Shown here: positions 1 to 25,560 of the stretch, piece after piece
Position numbering within the stretch: position 1 is the stretch's first letter
How the letters are laid out: each line of letters opens with the position of its first letter
Source of the DNA: a virus
Reading direction: 5' to 3' (one strand)
IMG/VR virus record: IMGVR_UViG_3300036819_000051
Location: 1-25,801 of that record
DNA: 25,801 bases
Program-made: the position numbers and the translations under genes
The notes under the pieces: model-generated
Databases searched by the model: none
What the model was told of the DNA's origin: nothing
The model's input: the letters and a program-made list of their open reading frames with translations, nothing else

Positions 1-2330
1 CTGATCTTGTCCGGATTATCGTCCGCTGCCGCGACTCGTTGCAGGTAATCGAAGTATTTTGGCCCGTACTTTGCCGTGTCACCTTCGGATGTCGCTTTGA
101 CGTGCGAGTTGTAGAACGTTTGCAGATTTTCTCGTGTCTGCAAACCAAGATGCGGGTCGTTGGCAATTTGGCTCACAATGCTTGGATCGATCGGCCCTTT
201 CATCATCCGCTGGACATAGCCATCGGCGGCGGCGTTCTGGTTTTCGACGATCGCCTGCTTTTGTGCAGTAATAACCATCTGCCGCGAGCGAAACTGTACG
301 TCAGCTTTTTGGACGGCGTGCGCGTAAGCTGTCGGGTTGGTGGCGGCTCGCGGATCATTGTCGAGATTGGCGATCGTCTGCGCGTGGTGTTGCGCAAGTT
401 CCGCTTCCGCGTTCGCCAGATCAGCCATGCCGGGCGGCGGCGTCGGTGCCGGGGTGGCGTTCGGGCGGGGTGCTGGGGCAGCGGTGCCGACAAGCTGGTC
501 AGGCTGCTGTTGCCCAATCAACGTCGCCGCATGAGCGGCGTATTGCCGATAACCCTGCGGCGATGGATGGACATTGTCTGTCGGCAGCGGCCCCGCAAAC
601 GGAACGCCCTTCCGCTGGGCGATCTGCTGTAGCTGTGCATTGTATGGCGCGAATCGTCCCTGATCGACGCCTTGCAAGACGACATTGGCCCCGGCTGCCT
701 TGAGCGCGTCGAGCTGCGCGCCGACAAGCGGGAGCGCGGCTTGCGGATTAGCGCCGGCATTCATCAGGCCCGATGACCACAGGACGGTTTTGCCCTGGAA
801 GCGATCGGGATGCGCTTGGATATAGTCGAGACCTTGTTGCGGATTACGTCCTCCGGCGGCATCAGCATCGCCGGCATTCGGATCGGCAACACTGTTGACC
901 GCGTTGCCGCCGAGGCCGCCATAGCGGATCGCGCCGACACCGATACTGTCGCCGGCCGCCATATCGAACTTGCCGGGCTGGCCCGGAGCAGCGGCTGATG
1001 TCGCGCCGCCACCGACTTTGGACGCCGCCTGCTGAAATCTGTTTTGCCACATCGAAACGAACTGGCTCGCCGGCGCGTTCGGATCGCCGCCGTTGGCGCT
1101 GATGTTCGCGGGCGGCACCACCTGACCGGCCGGTTTGTCCGGATTTTTCAACAGCGACAGGGCGCCACCAGTGCCTTGCTGATGCGCGAGATAGATCTCC
1201 GCCGGCGTCGGATCGCGGCCAAGGGCTAAAGCGAGTTCCTTTTTTTTCTGTGCCAGGAACGCGACGCCGTTTTTGATCTGCGTATCGGTGTCGGCCATGT
1301 TGCCGCCGCCGACACTCGACCACTCCGGCTGCCCGAGTTGAAAGATGTTGCCCCGGCTGCCGAGGTTCGTCCCCATACCGCTTTCGATTTGCGCCGTCGC
1401 GAGTGCGGTTGTTGGGTCAACATCGCTCTGCTGTGCGGCCTGGGCGATCCGTGTCGGCACAGCGCCGCCGGTTGACATACCACCGCCGCTCGTGGCGCGG
1501 CCCTCTGCATCGGCCAGTATCTGATTGCCAAGAACGGCAGTTCCCGCTGTCTGCACCCCATGCAGCAACTGGTCGTAGACCGGCCCGGTCAGCTCGGCGC
1601 TGTCTTTATGTGCGTCGAGAATTTGCTGCGCCTTGGCCGGATTTGTTCGAGTCAGCGAGCGAACCTGCTGTACCACGCTTTCGGCGTTTGCTTTGGCCAC
1701 AATGTCCTTGGACATATCTGGCGTGAGATTGTTGCCGTATTGAAGCTGCCCTGCCTGTATCCTCGCGGATTTCAACTTCTCTGTTGCAGTTTGCACGCCC
1801 GCATCGTCACCAGCGACTGCTGCGGAGGCGATCGATCTTAGGCTGGCATCCGCTGTCGTCTTGTTGACACCGATGCCCCATACCTGGGCTTGCTGGGCAT
1901 AATGCCGCCCGATTTCCCCCTCGATCCGAGAGCGCATATACCGCGTCTGGTTGGAAAACGTCGCCTGCGCGTCGGGTGTCGAAAGCGACCCCATCGCATT
2001 TTCCTGCGCGTCTTTCAGATGCTGCAAGACACCCTGGCGGGCGTCCATCGCATCCTGACCCTTGAGGCCATAAAACCCCACGTCATTCGGCTTGTTCGGA
2101 TCGCCGAACAGGATTTTGTCGGTCTCGTCCTGCCAGTTGTTGACCGCCTGCTGCGCCGCGATCTGACTGTAGAACTGCACCGCATGCGTGCCGCCCTGGC
2201 CAAGCTGCTCAAGTCCCTGGCCGACGCCGGTTCCGAACGCTGCAGCCGGCGCATTCGTGCTGTTATAATCGTTGGGGACGCCTTCCTGTGGCAAAACCGA
2301 AGGGACGCCCTGGGAATAGCTCTGCACCAT
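1..2330 (-). CDS. Internal virion (ejection) protein with lytic transglycosylase and SGNH-like domains, partial
   Basis: The reading frame starts at an ATG (2330-2328) one base after the stop of the preceding gene and stays open to the left edge, so the C-terminus is missing (776 codons seen). Residues about 300-395 look like a lytic transglycosylase: candidate catalytic Glu316 in IESG, then NIFQLGQ, and a late EIYLAHQQGTGG (378-389). Residues about 455-605 look like an SGNH hydrolase: GDSIGVG with Ser462, WSSGLMNAG with Asn524, and a DNVHPSPQGY block with Asp585 and His588. Position after gp12-, gp13- and gp14-type genes matches T7 gp15/gp16 ejection proteins, which enter the periplasm and open the cell wall. 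The transglycosylase should cut glycan strands; the SGNH part may be an esterase (inferred). A run of eight A residues encodes QKKK near residue 364. The motif reading is firm; the esterase substrate is unknown. Confidence 0.85.
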   Translation of the reverse strand, partial: MVQSYSQGVPSVLPQEGVPNDYNSTNAPAAAFGTGVGQGLEQLGQGGTHAVQFYSQIAAQQAVNNWQDETDKILFGDPNKPNDVGFYGLKGQDAMDARQGVLQHLKDAQENAMGSLSTPDAQATFSNQTRYMRSRIEGEIGRHYAQQAQVWGIGVNKTTADASLRSIASAAVAGDDAGVQTATEKLKSARIQAGQLQYGNNLTPDMSKDIVAKANAESVVQQVRSLTRTNPAKAQQILDAHKDSAELTGPVYDQLLHGVQTAGTAVLGNQILADAEGRATSGGGMSTGGAVPTRIAQAAQQSDVDPTTALATAQIESGMGTNLGSRGNIFQLGQPEWSSVGGGNMADTDTQIKNGVAFLAQKKKELALALGRDPTPAEIYLAHQQGTGGALSLLKNPDKPAGQVVPPANISANGGDPNAPASQFVSMWQNRFQQAASKVGGGATSAAAPGQPGKFDMAAGDSIGVGAIRYGGLGGNAVNSVADPNAGDADAAGGRNPQQGLDYIQAHPDRFQGKTVLWSSGLMNAGANPQAALPLVGAQLDALKAAGANVVLQGVDQGRFAPYNAQLQQIAQRKGVPFAGPLPTDNVHPSPQGYRQYAAHAATLIGQQQPDQLVGTAAPAPRPNATPAPTPPPGMADLANAEAELAQHHAQTIANLDNDPRAATNPTAYAHAVQKADVQFRSRQMVITAQKQAIVENQNAAADGYVQRMMKGPIDPSIVSQIANDPHLGLQTRENLQTFYNSHVKATSEGDTAKYGPKYFDYLQRVAAADDNPDKI

Positions 2331-2331
2331 C

Positions 2332-2883
2332 TCAGAAGCCCGCCGTCCCTTCCGACTGGCCCCATCCGCTACCGCCCTGCATCCACTGGAACTTCGTCGG
2401 CAGTGTTGAGGCGCTGGACAGGAGAGAGCCGCCCGCTGACAAAACGCCCGCCGGGATCGCGTTCGCCGCTACCGAGCTTTCGAGCGTCGACTGCGCCCCA
2501 AAATTCGTGGCTTGCGTCCGGTAGCCGTAGGCTTGCAGCAAAGCATTATGCTCGGTCGTTGCCTGGTCGAGTTCGCCCGTCATCTCCTGTGTCTTGCGCG
2601 TATCCTCGTTCGACCCCGAATTGATGTCGACGCCGCCGGCCGCCAGTTGCGAAGTCAACAACCCCTGTTGCGCCCGCGCCTTTGCTCCTGCCGCCTGTGT
2701 CGCCGCGGCACCGGCTTCGGTCGCATAGGCCGCGTTCTGGTTGGCGACCGTCTGGTTATTCTTCGCGACCTCGGCTTGGTAATTGGCCTGGTTTGACGAG
2801 GCTATGCCTGTCGTGATGGCGCCGGCGGCGGAAGCAACCGCGCTTCCGATCGCCAGCGTTCCGAGGGTGACCGGATCAGCCAT
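2332..2883 (-). CDS. Internal virion protein, T7 gp14-like
   Basis: A 183-residue protein rich in Ala, Gln, Ser and Thr. The N-terminus (residues 3-30) is a hydrophobic Ala/Gly/Thr stretch, followed by a long Gln/Ala-rich helical region (33-110) of the kind seen in gp14-type ejection proteins that insert into the outer membrane. It lies between a gp13-type gene, whose end overlaps its start, and the large ejection protein, the same order as in T7. No enzymatic motif is visible. The call rests on position, size and composition rather than on a diagnostic motif. Confidence 0.7.
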   Translation of the reverse strand: MADPVTLGTLAIGSAVASAAGAITTGIASSNQANYQAEVAKNNQTVANQNAAYATEAGAAATQAAGAKARAQQGLLTSQLAAGGVDINSGSNEDTRKTQEMTGELDQATTEHNALLQAYGYRTQATNFGAQSTLESSVAANAIPAGVLSAGGSLLSSASTLPTKFQWMQGGSGWGQSEGTAGF

Positions 2884-3295
2884 GCAAGCGGAATCCGTCC
2901 AATGTCACTTCAGTCGGATCGAGGCCACAGAACGAGGCGAAACACCGTGCCCGCTCATCGTCGTCAAGCACCCAAGCGGTTATCCTGACCCCGCAATCCT
3001 TTAGTCTCCTGGCTTCAGCCACCACGGCACGCGCCAACGGGAACCGCTGCGTTCGCGCCTCAGGCGTGATCGCGAGCCATGCTTCGGCTTCCCCAGAAAG
3101 CAGCGTCCCTTTCCACCCGCCCACCGCCGCCACCTTGCCGTCGATCAGCAGCGCAAATGTGCGGGTGGACTCGACAAAAGACCGGCGCATTTCCCGTCGC
3201 GGATCGCGGCCAAGCGCACGAGCACGATCCAGTATCTCCGGGTCGAGATTTCGCGCCACTCGCAACACATGCCCCAACCGGGCCGGAACAATCAT
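2876..3295 (-). CDS. GNAT-fold-like internal protein, T7 gp13 / DUF2833-like
   Basis: I chose the ATG at 3295 because it forms an ATGA overlap with the stop of the upstream tail gene; earlier in-frame starts lie inside that gene in another frame. The 139-residue product has a GNAT-like pattern: a strand with FALLIDGKVAAVGGWKG, then EAWLAITPEAR, a helix with RFPLARAVVAEARRL, and a C-terminal ITAWVLDDDERARCFASFCG. Proteins of this type occupy the gp13 position of T7-like phages and are listed as DUF2833 or acetyltransferase-like. Whether it acetylates anything is unknown. Its end overlaps the start of the gp14-like gene by 8 bases. Confidence 0.7.
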   Translation of the reverse strand: MIVPARLGHVLRVARNLDPEILDRARALGRDPRREMRRSFVESTRTFALLIDGKVAAVGGWKGTLLSGEAEAWLAITPEARTQRFPLARAVVAEARRLKDCGVRITAWVLDDDERARCFASFCGLDPTEVTLDGFRLHG

Positions 3296-6288
3296 GCGGC
3301 CTGCCGTTGTTGGCGAGGCGGCAACTGCACTTCCGGCGTGTCCCCCGGCTGTATCTCTGGGATCAGCGCGAGAACCGACAACGGCAACGGGAGCGTCTGC
3401 TGCACCGCGACTTGTCCCGGCTTTTTCCAACCCGATTGGATCGGAATACGCGTGTCGCCGGTAAACAGCGGCTGCACCGCTCTGCCACCAGGACTGGTAT
3501 AGGTCGCAGGCAACGCGGCGCCTTGCGGCTTAGCCGTTGCGAGGCCGGGCCAGTTGACGAATAACGGCGCCGGGCTGAGGGTCGAGGCATCCACCTGATT
3601 TGACCCCGCCTGCATAGGGCTGGAGGCTTCGGAGCGCACTGTCGCCGCCGGAATGACCTTGCGGGTGCCTTGGATCGTCGGATTGCCGGTATCGAGATAG
3701 ACGCTCTGCATCTGCGCGGTAAAGCCGAGTCCCAGAATAATCAGGGATGCCGGGAACGGCAGCGTCACAAACCCGGTGAAATCCGGCACCAGGGGGCCGA
3801 CCGGCACACCATCGGCGAGGCCGACCACCTGTTTGCCGGCAAGGTGCATCAACCCGCCAACTTCGGTCACGTTCGGCGCGAGGCTCCACGTTCCTTGCCG
3901 CTGCGAAAACGGCACGCTGTTCGGATCATCGGGGATGATGTCCTGACAGGGATAAATCCATGTCCCGTTGACCGAACTGATGCTGACAAACTGCGTCACC
4001 GTCGCTATGCCGCCGCCCATGCGCAGGGTCTTGCCGACATCGCCAGCGGCAAAAACATCCGCAGTTGTAGTAAAAACCGCATTTCCAACACCGGTGCTGG
4101 CGCCGATATCAGCCGCCGGGTTGGGCAATACCGTCGCCACGCCGGCATCGACCGCCCACGCGTCCTCGACCGAATTCCACGTCCGGTTATCCATGCGTTC
4201 GATCAGATACCGCGTCGATCCGTCGCCCGCGACCGGCCGCTGCACGACCATGTAAAGCGCGTCGACCGGTAGCTCGGCCACGGTGCACAGCGATCGAACC
4301 TGCCCTTGCGTCGTGTGCCGCGCCCAGCCGTAAATCTCCTGCTCCTTGACATAGGTGAGGCTCAGCATCACCCCGTCATCGCGAACCGACCAGATCACCC
4401 GATACGGTTCCTGGCACCACGCCCAATCCACCAGTTGATGCCCAGCCAAAAGATGCGAAGACGGCCAGGAAATATCGGCGCCGGTGTAGATGTTGAACAC
4501 CAGTTGATAAGTCAGATCACGAACCGTCGCGCCGTTCGATTGCAGATAGACGATGTCCCAATTCACCCGGATCGGCGACACCATCGGCGAGGCGCCGATC
4601 GAGCTTTGCGGGGCCGCCAATTGGTTTGACGGGCTGATCGCAGCAGGGTTTGAGGCAAACGATCCCGGCGCTCCGACCTGCCATACCGCGGACCCGGTAA
4701 AGGTGACGAGGCCCAATGGCATCTGCACCATCCAGTTGATGCCGTCAACCTGTTCGGCCCACGGCGTTCCGGTGATGGCGTCGTTGTTGTTGACCGGCAC
4801 GCTGCTGTCGAAATTGAGAAATGCCCCCGGCTGGCTCATCCAGTAGGTATCGGGATTATTTGTCGTAGAGGCATAAACCCGACGCTGCTGGAAATACGTC
4901 ACGACTCCCGGATAGGTGCCGCTCGCCGGGCCGATGTCGAGCGTCCCCGTCGCTGATGTTCCGTCGCCGGTGATGACGAGGCTGTCGCCAGGAGCATAGT
5001 CGTGACCATTGTCGAGCACCACCACGGCAACGACTTCGCTTCCACTGATGACGCACGCGCCCTCAAATCCGTTGCCGGTGCTGGTGGAGATCGTCGCCGC
5101 CGCTGTCGTCCAGTCGCTGGAACTGGAAGTCATGTCGATGAACAGAATCTGCCCTGGCGCAAACGGGTCCTTGTGCTGCGGCGGCGATTGCGTCGTGTCG
5201 GCGATCGTGTTGCTGTCGACGAACTGCGTCCCGAATGCCTGCCCGACAAATCCGAACGGTGCCCCTATCGGGACCGGCAGAGCATCCGTCGTATTTCCCG
5301 GATCGGTATTGTAGGATGGCGGGGCGCGATAGACGTTATAATAGACATTCCCGACGACCGGCGACCACGCGACGATGACCGACCCGGCCGTAACCGACAT
5401 GTCGACCGAGTCGGTCACATTGGCGATCGGCGAAGGGATCGATTCCGCGCCGGTATTCTGATCGACCGCCGTGACGACATAGGCATAGGCGCACGGCAAG
5501 GTCGGCGGCGAACTGCCGCTGTCCGGTTGCGTCGTCGCTGTTGCAGAGCAGGTTGATGGTGGCAGGATCGAGGATGAAAAAGCCGCGGGGGCGATCGACC
5601 AATCGGTTGGCCCGTTCCGAACGAGTTCCTGCGGCGGGTAGCTCGGATGCGTCAGCGACATCGTGTCGGCCGATTGCGTGTATTTCACCAACGGCATGTT
5701 GACCGCGGAATACGGCGACGCCACGGTGTAAATCCGCGCGACGATCCCGCCCGAGACATAGGCCGGGTATGCCGTCGAATTGAGGGTAAATCCGTCGAGG
5801 TCTTCCAGCGTGAAAGTGCCGGAACCGGTGTTGCTGTTCGCGACGATATAGGTGTTGCCGTTAAGCTGAATCATCCCCAAGACTTCGGAGATCGCGACCC
5901 AATCGCCGTCTGCGAAATTGTGACCCGGCGCGGTGATCTGGCAGGGATTGGCCTTGGTCGCTCCGGTTATCGCGAAATCCGTCTCGATGACATAACCGCC
6001 ATTGCTGATGATCCGGAAATATGCATCGCCAAATTCCAGGACGTATTGCTGATCCTGGCGAAAGCTGAACGGGATCAATCGAGGTGCCGCGGCGCCGGTC
6101 TGCGCCGTCTGTTTCGACCGTCCGACATATCGAGTGCCGCCACGCGAATAGAGGCCACCCTTGAAACCGACAAACATATTGCGAGCGGTAGACGCGGCTG
6201 CGTGGTAGCCGGCCCAATCGACACGGCCGTAAAGGGCCGGCGCGATCTCTCCTCGGGTAAAGCTGGGATCGATAAACGGAGCGGTCAG
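3292..6288 (-). CDS. Tail tubular protein B-like nozzle protein (T7 gp12 type), CTG start
   Basis: The first ATG in the frame is at 6177, but 37 codons upstream of it are open and encode the family's N-terminal signature: PSFTRGEIAPALYGRVDW, then N-M-F-V, then GGLYSRGGTRYVG, matching the usual 'F..GE.SP.L.GR.D..Y ... GG...R.GT.FV' pattern. The frame closes just before, and the only reasonable start is CTG at 6288, whose TG is shared with the TGA of the preceding gene (CTGA). This gives 998 residues against 794 for T7 gp12. Residues about 255-345 resemble a fibronectin type III-like insertion (AYAYVVTAVDQNTGAESIPSP, then VYYNVYRAPP). The rest is beta-rich. It should form the tail nozzle below the gp11-type ring. 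Confidence 0.85.
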   Translation of the reverse strand: MTAPFIDPSFTRGEIAPALYGRVDWAGYHAAASTARNMFVGFKGGLYSRGGTRYVGRSKQTAQTGAAAPRLIPFSFRQDQQYVLEFGDAYFRIISNGGYVIETDFAITGATKANPCQITAPGHNFADGDWVAISEVLGMIQLNGNTYIVANSNTGSGTFTLEDLDGFTLNSTAYPAYVSGGIVARIYTVASPYSAVNMPLVKYTQSADTMSLTHPSYPPQELVRNGPTDWSIAPAAFSSSILPPSTCSATATTQPDSGSSPPTLPCAYAYVVTAVDQNTGAESIPSPIANVTDSVDMSVTAGSVIVAWSPVVGNVYYNVYRAPPSYNTDPGNTTDALPVPIGAPFGFVGQAFGTQFVDSNTIADTTQSPPQHKDPFAPGQILFIDMTSSSSDWTTAAATISTSTGNGFEGACVISGSEVVAVVVLDNGHDYAPGDSLVITGDGTSATGTLDIGPASGTYPGVVTYFQQRRVYASTTNNPDTYWMSQPGAFLNFDSSVPVNNNDAITGTPWAEQVDGINWMVQMPLGLVTFTGSAVWQVGAPGSFASNPAAISPSNQLAAPQSSIGASPMVSPIRVNWDIVYLQSNGATVRDLTYQLVFNIYTGADISWPSSHLLAGHQLVDWAWCQEPYRVIWSVRDDGVMLSLTYVKEQEIYGWARHTTQGQVRSLCTVAELPVDALYMVVQRPVAGDGSTRYLIERMDNRTWNSVEDAWAVDAGVATVLPNPAADIGASTGVGNAVFTTTADVFAAGDVGKTLRMGGGIATVTQFVSISSVNGTWIYPCQDIIPDDPNSVPFSQRQGTWSLAPNVTEVGGLMHLAGKQVVGLADGVPVGPLVPDFTGFVTLPFPASLIILGLGFTAQMQSVYLDTGNPTIQGTRKVIPAATVRSEASSPMQAGSNQVDASTLSPAPLFVNWPGLATAKPQGAALPATYTSPGGRAVQPLFTGDTRIPIQSGWKKPGQVAVQQTLPLPLSVLALIPEIQPGDTPEVQLPPRQQRQAA

Positions 6289-12334: not shown

Positions 12335-13609
12335 CTATTGCAGGACGCTTGCAATCGCGGTTTCCGCAATTTGCGCGATGTAGGTGTAGCCCAGACTGGT
12401 CGGATGAATGCCGTCGAGATAGTACGGCGCACCGTTCTGGCCGACCTGACCAATCGTCGGATCGGCGGCATAATCGGCCACGACGTAGTTACGCTGTCCC
12501 GAATATTTGCGGATCAGATTGTTGTAGATCATCCGTTGTGCATTGATGGACGTACCACGTGGCAGCATCGTGCCGACCACCACCTTCCACCCATCGGCCT
12601 GCGCCATGTTGATGAAAGGTATCAGTTGCTGAAATGTGACTTCACCAGACTGCCCGCCGGCGATATCGTTTGTCCCGATCCACAGGTGAAGGACATTGTT
12701 CTTCACTCCCCTGTTGACCAAGGGGCGGATAAACTGCGGGTAAGCAGCCGCTTGCTGATTAACAGTCTGGCCGAACGCGCCATAGTCATAGGTTTTGAGC
12801 GGCACGGTCATTTGTGCAAGCATCTGTTGCGGGAAAGTCTGGTTGAGGGTTGCCCCATAACCTTCCGTGATGCTGTCGCCCTGATAGACCATGTTAGCGC
12901 GCGACTGCGGCGCGAGACCGAGTTGTCGCCGGCAAATCCGAACGTCGTCGAATTCTCGTCGATCCACACCCGGATCGCGCTGGGGCCAGATACCACGCCA
13001 GAAACAAACGGCGACAAAGCCGGAGGCGTGGTAATTGCCCAGGTGCTGACGTAGCTCAACAGGAAGGCGCTAGCCGAAGCCGTATAGCCGTAATGGAACG
13101 AATGCGTCGAATTCGTCAGCTGCATGATCTGCGTCGTGTCGTAGGAGCACCGCTGTTGCTGGAGCGACACCGACGAGACACCATTGCCCTCCGCCGCCAC
13201 GCCAGACGGCAATGTCATAAAAACAGCGGCCATTGATCCTCCTTGTACCGTCGTATCGAAAACCAGAGCGCGAGCATTTCCGATATTGATGCCCTGGACG
13301 ATCGTCGGCGCTGTCGCGAAAGCAGCGGTCGCATCAAGGCTTGACGTACCATTTTGGTTGTAGAGCTTCATCACGCGCGGCTGGAGAAATCCGGCGGCCG
13401 CTGTGGCGGCATCAAGCGCCTGATAATCCGGCAGGCCATTCGCGAGGAAATTGATCGTCGTCGGGCTGCCGCCGCTAGTGTACTGCACATCAAACGCAGC
13501 GCCAGTAGCGATAAGACTGCGACTGCGCAAAAGCACCCGGCAACGCACCAAAGAAAAGGGCGCCGCAAAGGGCGCCCCAAAGGACGATCTTGTTAACGCG
13601 CATGGCCAT
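12335..13609 (-). pseudogene. Exported lectin-like + SGNH esterase gene, split by two frameshifts
   Basis: Three segments in different frames look like one ancestral gene. Segment 1 (from ATG 13609 or 13603, stop TGA at 13490) is a Sec signal peptide with IVLWGALCGALFFGALPGAFA. Segment 2 (about 13520-12910, another frame) is a beta-rich, AbfB/LamG-like domain with QPRVMKLYNQNGTSSLDA and ARALVFD. Segment 3 (to 12335, same frame as segment 1) is an SGNH hydrolase with GDSITEGYG, WIGTNDIAG and DGIHPTSLGY, carrying Ser, Gly, Asn and Asp/His of blocks I, III and V. A shift of +1 is needed near 13510-13520 and -1 near 12895-12915. Segment 2 seems to lack its last strands, so small deletions are likely. 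Segment 3 could still be made alone from GTG 12967 or the ATG just before GDS. The enzyme would remove acetyl or similar groups from sugars. Sequencing errors are the main alternative. Confidence 0.65.
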
Positions 13610-14071
13610 CTATCCCCCGGTCGTCGGCGCTGTCCCGGTCGTGGACAAGCGATAATTGATCGTGCCGCTCGTGTAGGCCGTGCAGTCCAGTCGGTAGAGG
13701 ACGCCCTTTTCCGGCTCGCTCGCGAGAACGGAAACGTCCTTGTTTGGCGTGCTGTAAACCGCTTGCGTTCCGTCGCCTCCGACCCCAGCCACCGCCCAGG
13801 TCGTGCCGCCATCAAACGAGCGCTCAAGCTGCACCGTCGCGCTCCAACTGCCGTTCGGGCCGCCGGAGCCGTAAATCAGAATGTTGAATGTGCTCGCACC
13901 CGACAAAAACATCGCGCTCTGCCCGGTGCCGGTAAACGATCCCGCGACAACGGCATTGGCCTGATCCTTGGCCGGCGGCGTCTGCGAGACAGCAGCGGGA
14001 ATGCCGGCATAGGCCGGCGCGCACGACGCCAGCAACAGCAGCAGATACGCCAGCCGCCGGAACATCGTCAC
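13610..14071 (-). CDS. Exported beta-rich protein, function unknown
   Basis: The start is GTG at 14071 (GTGA overlap with the upstream stop) or ATG at 14065, which is better spaced from AGGG. The 153-residue product has a signal peptide (FRRLAYLLLLLASCAPAYA). The LASC sequence resembles a lipobox, so it could be a lipoprotein; ordinary cleavage after AYA is equally possible. The mature part reads like a single beta-sandwich domain (STFNILIYGSGGPNGSWSAT, VQLERSFDGGTTW, YRLDCTAYTSGTINYRLS), a pattern seen in phage decoration or tail-appendage proteins. It precedes the split esterase gene. Confidence 0.6.
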   Translation of the reverse strand: MTMFRRLAYLLLLLASCAPAYAGIPAAVSQTPPAKDQANAVVAGSFTGTGQSAMFLSGASTFNILIYGSGGPNGSWSATVQLERSFDGGTTWAVAGVGGDGTQAVYSTPNKDVSVLASEPEKGVLYRLDCTAYTSGTINYRLSTTGTAPTTGG

Positions 14072-24906: not shown

Positions 24907-25560
24907 TCACTTCAGGCCACCAGCAGCGCAACATTCGCCGCACGATTGGCCAAGCGTGTCCCACAGGTAAATTTGGCCATCGGCGTTGCGCAGCAAAATG
25001 TCTGCGTGGCCGTCCCCGTTGAAATCTCCAACGCCGGCGATTTTGCAATCAGTGTTAAGACGGCCGAGCTTTCGGTATGAGGCTGTTCCGCCGGCGGATA
25101 TCGTCCACAGCCCGACTTCGCCGTCCCTGTTGTTGCGCCACAAAATGTCGGCCTTGCCGCGCTCGGTGAAATCCGCAGCCCCCTGGATGCTCCAGTCAGG
25201 AGCGCTGTACCCGAGGTCGACAAACGTCGGAACGCTATCGACCAGCGTCCATAGTCCGACATAGCCATAAGTGCTGCGCCATAAGATGGCGTCGTGGCCG
25301 CTGCCAAGGAAATCGCCGGCGCCTTGGACACTCCACTCGGCTGTGCTTGTGCCGATGGACTGCACGTGGCGATTGTGAGCATGGACGACCGTAGCGGCGG
25401 CAACGCGCATATCTGCTGCTATTGCCGCCGCCGCGGTCCTCGTTATGTCTCGATGGAGCGCCAGGGAGGCCTGCAGAACGAAGCCAAGCAACATCAGATT
25501 CACAGCTAAAACCGCCGTAACAGCGACATCGATACCATATCGCGATACCTTGCCGATCAT
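24907..25560 (-). CDS. Membrane-anchored FG-GAP/VCBS-repeat protein
   Basis: A 217-residue product with an N-terminal transmembrane segment or signal anchor (VAVTAVLAVNLMLLGFVLQA), a helical linker to about residue 70, then three repeats of about 48-50 residues: GAGDFLGSGHDAILWR, GAADFTERGKADILWRN, GVGDFNGDGHADILLRN, each followed by G.VGLW or G.IYLW. The DxDGxxD-like loops (best in the third) can bind calcium in FG-GAP proteins. It is probably on the periplasmic or outer side of the inner membrane. This is not a virion protein type; it may be a lysogenic-conversion gene. Cys residues at the C-terminus (GQSCGECC) are unusual. Confidence 0.75.
   Translation of the reverse strand: MIGKVSRYGIDVAVTAVLAVNLMLLGFVLQASLALHRDITRTAAAAIAADMRVAAATVVHAHNRHVQSIGTSTAEWSVQGAGDFLGSGHDAILWRSTYGYVGLWTLVDSVPTFVDLGYSAPDWSIQGAADFTERGKADILWRNNRDGEVGLWTISAGGTASYRKLGRLNTDCKIAGVGDFNGDGHADILLRNADGQIYLWDTLGQSCGECCAAGGLK

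Follow-up and report, generated by a model that had tools for sequence, protein, structure and literature searches.

A predicted SGNH hydrolase domain in phage ejection-type and other virion-type proteins and its exchangeable murein-hydrolase partners

Gene context of the ejection-type protein

The DNA analysed here (hereinafter designated the window) comprises the 25,801 bases of IMG/VR virus record IMGVR_UViG_3300036819_000051, which Pfam and PHROG matches identify as the structural part of a podovirus-like phage (Table 1). Among the matches listed for its portal protein, the highest-ranking isolates, with about 34% identity, are phages of Gram-negative bacteria. The gene of interest lies at the edge of the window, directly downstream of the gp13-like (phrog_308) and gp14-like (phrog_418) genes in T7-type order; the gp14-like gene also matches PF24072 (T7_gp14) at E 0.0015, below the Pfam cut-off. 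On the minus strand, the reading frame extends over 776 stop-free codons from 2330 to 3, where the window edge truncates it. Judged by the closest relative, the 984-aa protein L004, about 200 C-terminal residues are missing.

The encoded protein is homologous along its length to L004 and over residues 12-593 to the 1215-aa protein L052, both of which have the window-type N-terminal module but another middle domain. Compared with the gp15 and gp16 families, its sole PHROG matches fall in the transglycosylase region, and a direct search of viral contigs with the whole protein gave no match. The protein is probably an internal virion (ejection) protein, for which we infer packaging and ejection. 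Its likeness to T7 gp13/gp14/gp15/gp16 consists in the gene order and in a lytic transglycosylase carried by an ejected protein, and the murein hydrolase is known to shift from the gp16 to the gp15 homologue (PMC8954989). By contrast, the same review mentions no SGNH or lipase domain in the T7 ejection proteins, whereas the window protein has a predicted SGNH domain. Near the other end of the record, the window also encodes an FG-GAP/beta-propeller repeat protein with a hydrophobic start, which is unusual beside phage structural genes.

Table 1 Features of the window
Feature	Coordinates	Strand	Basis or remark
Ejection-type internal virion protein, gp15 position	3..2330	-	776 aa, 3' end beyond window
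N-terminal module, residues 1-285	1476..2330	-	Common to L004, L052 and L109
Lytic transglycosylase domain (predicted), residues 290-445	996..1463	-	PHROG matches and predicted fold
Glu316, presumed catalytic acid	1383..1385	-	Invariant in 19/19 sequences (alignment A8)
SGNH hydrolase domain (predicted), residues 455-607	510..968	-	AF2 fold; 34 further distinct homologous domains
Ser462, nucleophile, block I (GDSIGVG)	945..947	-	35/35 distinct domains
Asn524, presumed oxyanion-hole Asn, block III	759..761	-	35/35 distinct domains
Asp585, block V	576..578	-	32/35; exceptions L004, L052, L054
His588, block V	567..569	-	33/35; Asp instead in L062/L065
C-terminal region, start	3..509	-	Homologous to L004
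gp14-like internal virion protein	2332..2883	-	phrog_418 internal virion protein, E 2e-20
gp13-like internal virion protein	2876..3430	-	phrog_308 internal virion protein, E 4e-8
Tail proteins	within window		Listed between the capsid gene and the gp13-like and gp14-like genes
Major capsid protein, GP7 family	within window		PF20911, E 9e-98
Portal/head-tail connector	within window		PF12236, E 2e-109
Terminase-like gene	within window		In the structural part of the phage
Second SGNH/GDSL protein	12335-12967	-	PF13472, E 3.5e-18
Upstream ORF without family matches	12808-13827	-	Overlaps second SGNH gene in another frame
FG-GAP/beta-propeller repeat protein	24907-25560	-	Hydrophobic start

Folds and catalytic residues of the two predicted enzyme domains

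The initial annotation, made from the sequence alone, had described this protein as a transglycosylase-like region followed by an SGNH-like domain, and the motifs on which it drew (IESG, FQLGQ, EIYLAHQQGTGG, GDSIGVG, SGLMNAG and DNVHPSPQGY) are all present where it placed them. Both assignments hold up. Residues 290-445 match three PHROG families, one of them named transglycosylase (E 4e-12 to 5e-16); they match no Pfam model, SLT included, and a PDB sequence search with the single domain returned chance matches only. The AF2 model of the domain, built from 19 sequences (pLDDT 90.9), adopts a lytic transglycosylase fold, with phiKZ gp144 as the best structural match in VIA-align (Z 15.2, rmsd 2.3, 150 residues), followed by MltC, MltF, Slt and MltE. 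While phiKZ gp144 is a separate lytic protein, the transglycosylase of the window is the middle domain of an ejection-type protein.

Residues 455-607 are predicted to be an SGNH hydrolase fold with a conserved catalytic set, as judged from an AF2 model built from 35 sequences (pLDDT 93.1, pTM 0.88) and from relatives found by profile search. The model aligns with many SGNH structures at Z 12-13.7. The top VIA-align match is the catalytic domain of S. aureus OatA (6wn9/6vjp; Z 13.7, rmsd 2.6, 135 residues), tied within 1 Z with TesA and several general SGNH esterases (aryl, carbohydrate). Of the PatB/Ape-type enzymes with which a comparison had been proposed, N. gonorrhoeae PatB ranks fourth in Foldseek and Ape1 (4K7J) is absent from the structure and profile matches listed. 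A profile of the family run against 177,635 PDB sequences gave S. pneumoniae OatA as the best match, at a marginal E of 0.018; the single domain gave chance matches only in a PDB sequence search. The likeness to the C-terminal domain of OatA (S. aureus 6wn9/6vjp, S. pneumoniae 5ufy/5ug1) lies in the SGNH fold. OatA is an acetyl-transferring enzyme attached to a membrane acyltransferase; the phage domain, by contrast, has a murein hydrolase attached to it and belongs to a virion-type protein. Residues 455-607 alone match nothing in Pfam, NCBIfam or PHROGs, and the Pfam GDSL models PF13472 and PF00657 match neither the window protein nor its 34 relatives at E 0.01; the family is a domain for annotation that current libraries miss.

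The four catalytic positions, Ser462, Asn524, Asp585 and His588, stand in canonical SGNH order, and the three that the initial annotation had named as a triad (Ser462, Asp585 and His588) are conserved columns among the 35 distinct domains. Block V reads Asp585-x-x-His588 (DxxH) in the window protein, Asn524 is spaced as G-x-x-N compared with the usual G-x-N-D, and Gly494, in the stretch expected for block II, is kept in 34/35. Median dN/dS is 0.11-0.17 across the three groups tested, indicating purifying selection on the domain. Chance motif matches are ruled out as an explanation by the fold, the profile relationships and the conservation. One lineage, represented by L062 (1988-2392) and L065 (3986-4390), has replaced the catalytic His by Asp and kept Ser and Asn; to go by these residues, its SGNH domain, which stands beside Phage_lysozyme2, is possibly an inactive form.

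A second SGNH gene in the window had been cited as adding interest, at 12335-13609. That stretch contains 5 in-frame stops and is not one open frame; the SGNH part ends at 12967, and this gene and the overlapping upstream ORF are possibly one gene broken by a frameshift or sequencing error. Profile comparison shows no relation between the second protein and the SGNH domain of the ejection-type protein (hhalign probability 9%); being of an unrelated family, the second protein lends that domain no support. A search of viral contigs for relatives of the second gene found none. It therefore provided no control family, and other large ORFs of the SGNH loci were used as controls instead.

Distribution of the SGNH family and exchange of its partners

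Profile scans gathered 35 distinct domains, the window included, and place the SGNH family in unrelated backbones. Its carriers are podoviral ejection proteins (window, L004, L052), Mu-like prophage tape measure proteins (L005-L014 and BK070131), a tape-measure-like protein of an Elusimicrobia genome (L054), proteins of about 1000 aa in large phages (L031-L085), a protein type of 702-712 aa (L097-L106), and a Synechococcus phage S-H38 protein together with L086. The Gp5_OB domain of baseplate hub proteins occurs in 17 large ORFs of the SGNH loci. Among 50,697 isolate phage records, tblastn found the family only in BK070131, in S-H38 (two records) and, in a stand-alone 141-aa form joined to it by profile comparison (probability 97.7%), in SeF6a and CBA6. 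A search of bacterial genomes with alignment A2 and a search of plasmids gave no match. The stand-alone member in Kuttervirus SeF6a (L016, 2941-3366) has a signal-peptide-like start, lies between baseplate genes and carries the annotation 'putative lipase'; the form in CBA6 is alike. The PHROG profile phrog_19273, which stands for giant proteins (4846 positions, function unknown), holds the SGNH domain at about 555-715.

At E 0.01 or better, a murein-hydrolase Pfam match is present in 26 of the 35 distinct SGNH proteins: M23 in 6, Phage_lysozyme2 in 5, SLT in 5, GH24 lysozyme in 3, Amidase_2 in 3, DPBB_1 in 2, and M15_4 and Hydrolase_2 in 1 each. This total supposes that the partner classes are otherwise without overlap, as they are in the proteins listed singly, four of the five SLT partners being probably identical with the four SLT_3 matches. 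In the control set of 74 other large ORFs from these loci, no more than 9 match such a model (8 M23, 1 VanY) among the 25 families listed. The difference gives a Fisher p of 2e-10, which is nominal because the proteins are related to each other.

Nine SGNH proteins have no Pfam partner match. For the window protein the partner is set by its fold. Those of L028, L064, L067 and L082 are assigned through PHROG endolysin or lysin matches, homology to an Amidase_2 protein (L064 with L061) or shared motifs. The partners of L054, L059 and L074 are assigned by sequence motifs only; L075 has a weak match to the Hedgehog domain, which we take to have the fold of M15-type peptidases. A SleB-type Hydrolase_2 domain follows the SGNH domain in L066 and L069, by a weak Pfam match (E 5e-5) in a virion-type protein.

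The partner is exchanged as a cassette. Four pairs of otherwise near-identical proteins carry hydrolases that are, short matches aside, unrelated: phage lysozyme versus Hydrolase_2 (L063/L066), amidase-like versus SLT_3 (L064/L068), DPBB-like versus phage lysozyme (L070/L072) and GH24 lysozyme versus transglycosylase-like (L022/L028). Across these pairs, identity is 87-99% in the N-terminal part, 92-97% in the SGNH domain and 92-100% in the C-terminal tail. The window protein and L004 have SGNH domains that are 70% identical and middle domains of unlike type, the window transglycosylase giving no significant BLAST match to L004, a relationship that in sequence terms has the form of the same partner exchange on an older scale. 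Conversely, L109 has the window-type N-terminal module and transglycosylase (41%) but lacks an SGNH domain, and its C-terminal region matches the stretch of L052 that directly follows this domain; the SGNH domain is therefore a discrete, optional module.

None of 30 loci found via the transglycosylase domain has the SGNH family, ruling out that the latter is bound to the window-type transglycosylase.

SGNH domains are common in phage tail fibres. Tal of the staphylococcal phages phi11 (gp44) and 80alpha (gp59) resembles the window protein as a virion protein with an SGNH/GDSL domain, C-terminal in Tal, which has been proposed to act on the cell wall, its activity being unproven (PMC4876445, PMC7048315). 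Tal differs in being the tail-tip hub of Gram-positive siphophages; HHpred matched it to ordinary GDSL structures, and no series of exchangeable hydrolases is described for it. The S-H38 protein A0A873WIR8 and the BK070131 tape measure combine the SGNH family itself with a murein hydrolase (M15 peptidase, GH24 lysozyme), but on other backbones, and are annotated as hypothetical or by the peptidase domain alone. In the open-licence literature searched, we found neither this SGNH family nor an ejection protein with an SGNH domain described, and no account of an esterase that stays fixed while the murein hydrolase beside it is exchanged.

Candidate roles of the SGNH domain at the cell wall

Lytic transglycosylases cannot act on MurNAc that is O-acetylated at C6, lysozymes are blocked by the same modification, and Gram-negative bacteria that acetylate their peptidoglycan reverse it with an SGNH esterase (PMC6174289). 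Cells pair the two enzymes as well: the transglycosylase LtgA of Neisseria is found in a complex with the O-acetylesterase Ape1, each enhancing the other (PMC7083599). The window protein looks like LtgA- and Ape1-type activities on one chain: the likeness is that of an SGNH esterase alongside a lytic transglycosylase, while Ape1 and LtgA are two separate cellular proteins and the phage SGNH is a predicted domain of a single one. According to models of T7 infection, ejection proteins move into the periplasm to form a DNA channel, and the gp16 transglycosylase is needed where peptidoglycan is highly cross-linked (PMC8954989).

We read the SGNH domain as a hydrolase of envelope esters and most plausibly as a MurNAc O-acetylesterase, a reading to which we give about an even chance. 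It is supported by the nearest solved SGNH relatives, OatA and PatB, which act on the MurNAc C6 hydroxyl. Computation covers the two folds, the conserved catalytic residues and their order, the genomic setting and the repeated pairing with exchangeable murein hydrolases; for packaging and ejection, catalysis, substrate and the order of events we infer the following. The ejection protein would enter the periplasm of a Gram-negative host before the DNA does, and there the lytic transglycosylase would cut the glycan strand and the SGNH serine esterase would strip acyl groups, most likely the MurNAc C6 O-acetyl, from the same patch of peptidoglycan. Removal of the acetyl would free the C6 hydroxyl that transglycosylases need, and would also open the patch to lysozyme-type enzymes and the host's own autolysins, which would explain why the SGNH domain is kept while the neighbouring hydrolase is exchanged.

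The initial annotation had proposed more narrowly that the esterase clears O-acetyl groups so that the transglycosylase can act. That idea is sustained in so far as an SGNH domain with a conserved catalytic set adjoins a true transglycosylase fold and has OatA and PatB as its nearest relatives; as the whole purpose of the domain it is too narrow, the partner being an amidase or an M15/M23 peptidase, by Pfam match or homology, in at least 11 of the 35 distinct proteins. These partners count against a purely C6-hydroxyl-linked role, and cleavage by N-acetylmuramoyl-L-alanine amidases and M15/M23 peptidases is not known to depend on the C6 hydroxyl. The SGNH domain is therefore not solely a transglycosylase helper, and a role limited to unblocking transglycosylases is not supported. 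Beside amidases and peptidases, its role may be to expose the patch to the host's autolysins, or its substrate may be a different ester.

The occurrence of a fixed SGNH domain with an exchanged wall-cutter in unrelated viruses points to a general, largely undescribed wall-unlocking tool. Tentatively, and with somewhat less than even confidence, we propose that an undescribed SGNH esterase family may be a general accessory of virion murein hydrolases, a fixed module into which unrelated phage lineages plug different wall-cutters and which would clear acyl groups from peptidoglycan where the phage enters, irrespective of the bond cut afterwards. The handling of modified peptidoglycan by phages during entry is hardly studied. 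If the proposal is true, removal of wall decorations would be a separate, general entry step, and the effect of wall acetylation on phage infection would become testable.

Besides the amidase and peptidase partners, further observations weigh against the O-acetylesterase reading: the structural tie with TesA and with aryl and carbohydrate esterases fits several substrates, the domain is optional (L109 being without it), and the His is lost in L062/L065. Lipid esterases and esterases of other polysaccharides are its main rivals. A phospholipase, lysophospholipase or lipase that disturbs the outer or inner membrane for the ejected protein or tape measure would account for TesA (lysophospholipase L1/thioesterase) among the tied matches and for an SGNH presence independent of which bond the partner cuts, and ejection proteins and tape measures meet the inner membrane too. 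We nevertheless consider a lipase unlikely: the recognised neighbour is a murein hydrolase in family after family, and the sole SGNH enzyme among the PDB profile matches is OatA. An esterase for some other envelope ester, be it an acetylated surface polysaccharide or another wall decoration, would resemble the tailspike deacetylases; SGNH carbohydrate esterases (Est24, a CE3 esterase) tie in structure, and SGNH deacetylases that act on surface polysaccharide have been described in phage tails (e.g. PMC8471582). The domain, however, sits inside ejection, tape-measure or hub-adjacent proteins beside murein hydrolases rather than in receptor-binding fibres and has no detectable kinship to the window's own PF13472-type SGNH protein, making this alternative rather unlikely.

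A constant domain beside a variable cutter also has the look of a targeting module, and the SGNH domain could be a peptidoglycan-binding module that holds the exchangeable cutter on its substrate without need of catalysis. The lost His of L062/L065 and an Asp that is not aligned in L004, L052 and L054 would agree with such a module, but Ser and Asn in 35/35 and His in 33/35, together with the low dN/dS, render it decidedly unlikely. An OatA/PatB-like O-acetyltransferase capping the opened strand is highly improbable, for although OatA and PatB are the nearest solved relatives, both depend on a membrane acyltransferase partner, none of which was found by Pfam in the window protein and 34 relatives, and esterases tie in structure.

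The hosts of some carriers bear on the O-acetylesterase reading. For the GCCGTCTGAA motif scan, we used what we take to be the sequences of the uptake dialects. Neisseriaceae DNA-uptake-like motifs (dialect names as in PMC3630211) are present in 10/10 scanned Mu-like prophage records with the SGNH domain, and one such record holds 33 copies of GCCGTCTGAA compared with 0 in a reversed-pattern control. The peptidoglycan of Neisseria is O-acetylated, Ape1 is used there together with LtgA (PMC6174289, PMC7083599), and Ape1 is conserved in genera including Neisseria and Kingella (PMC7083599). The motifs fit an O-acetylesterase in those prophages, which are the carriers they concern. For cyanobacteria, the hosts of S-H38, a literature search on peptidoglycan O-acetylation found nothing useful, a point against the reading. 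The host label of BK070131 (L002), Helicobacter pametensis, may be wrong: the stretch examined has 56% G+C, Neisseriaceae uptake-like motifs are present, and the prophage matches at 90% identity another one that has these motifs too.
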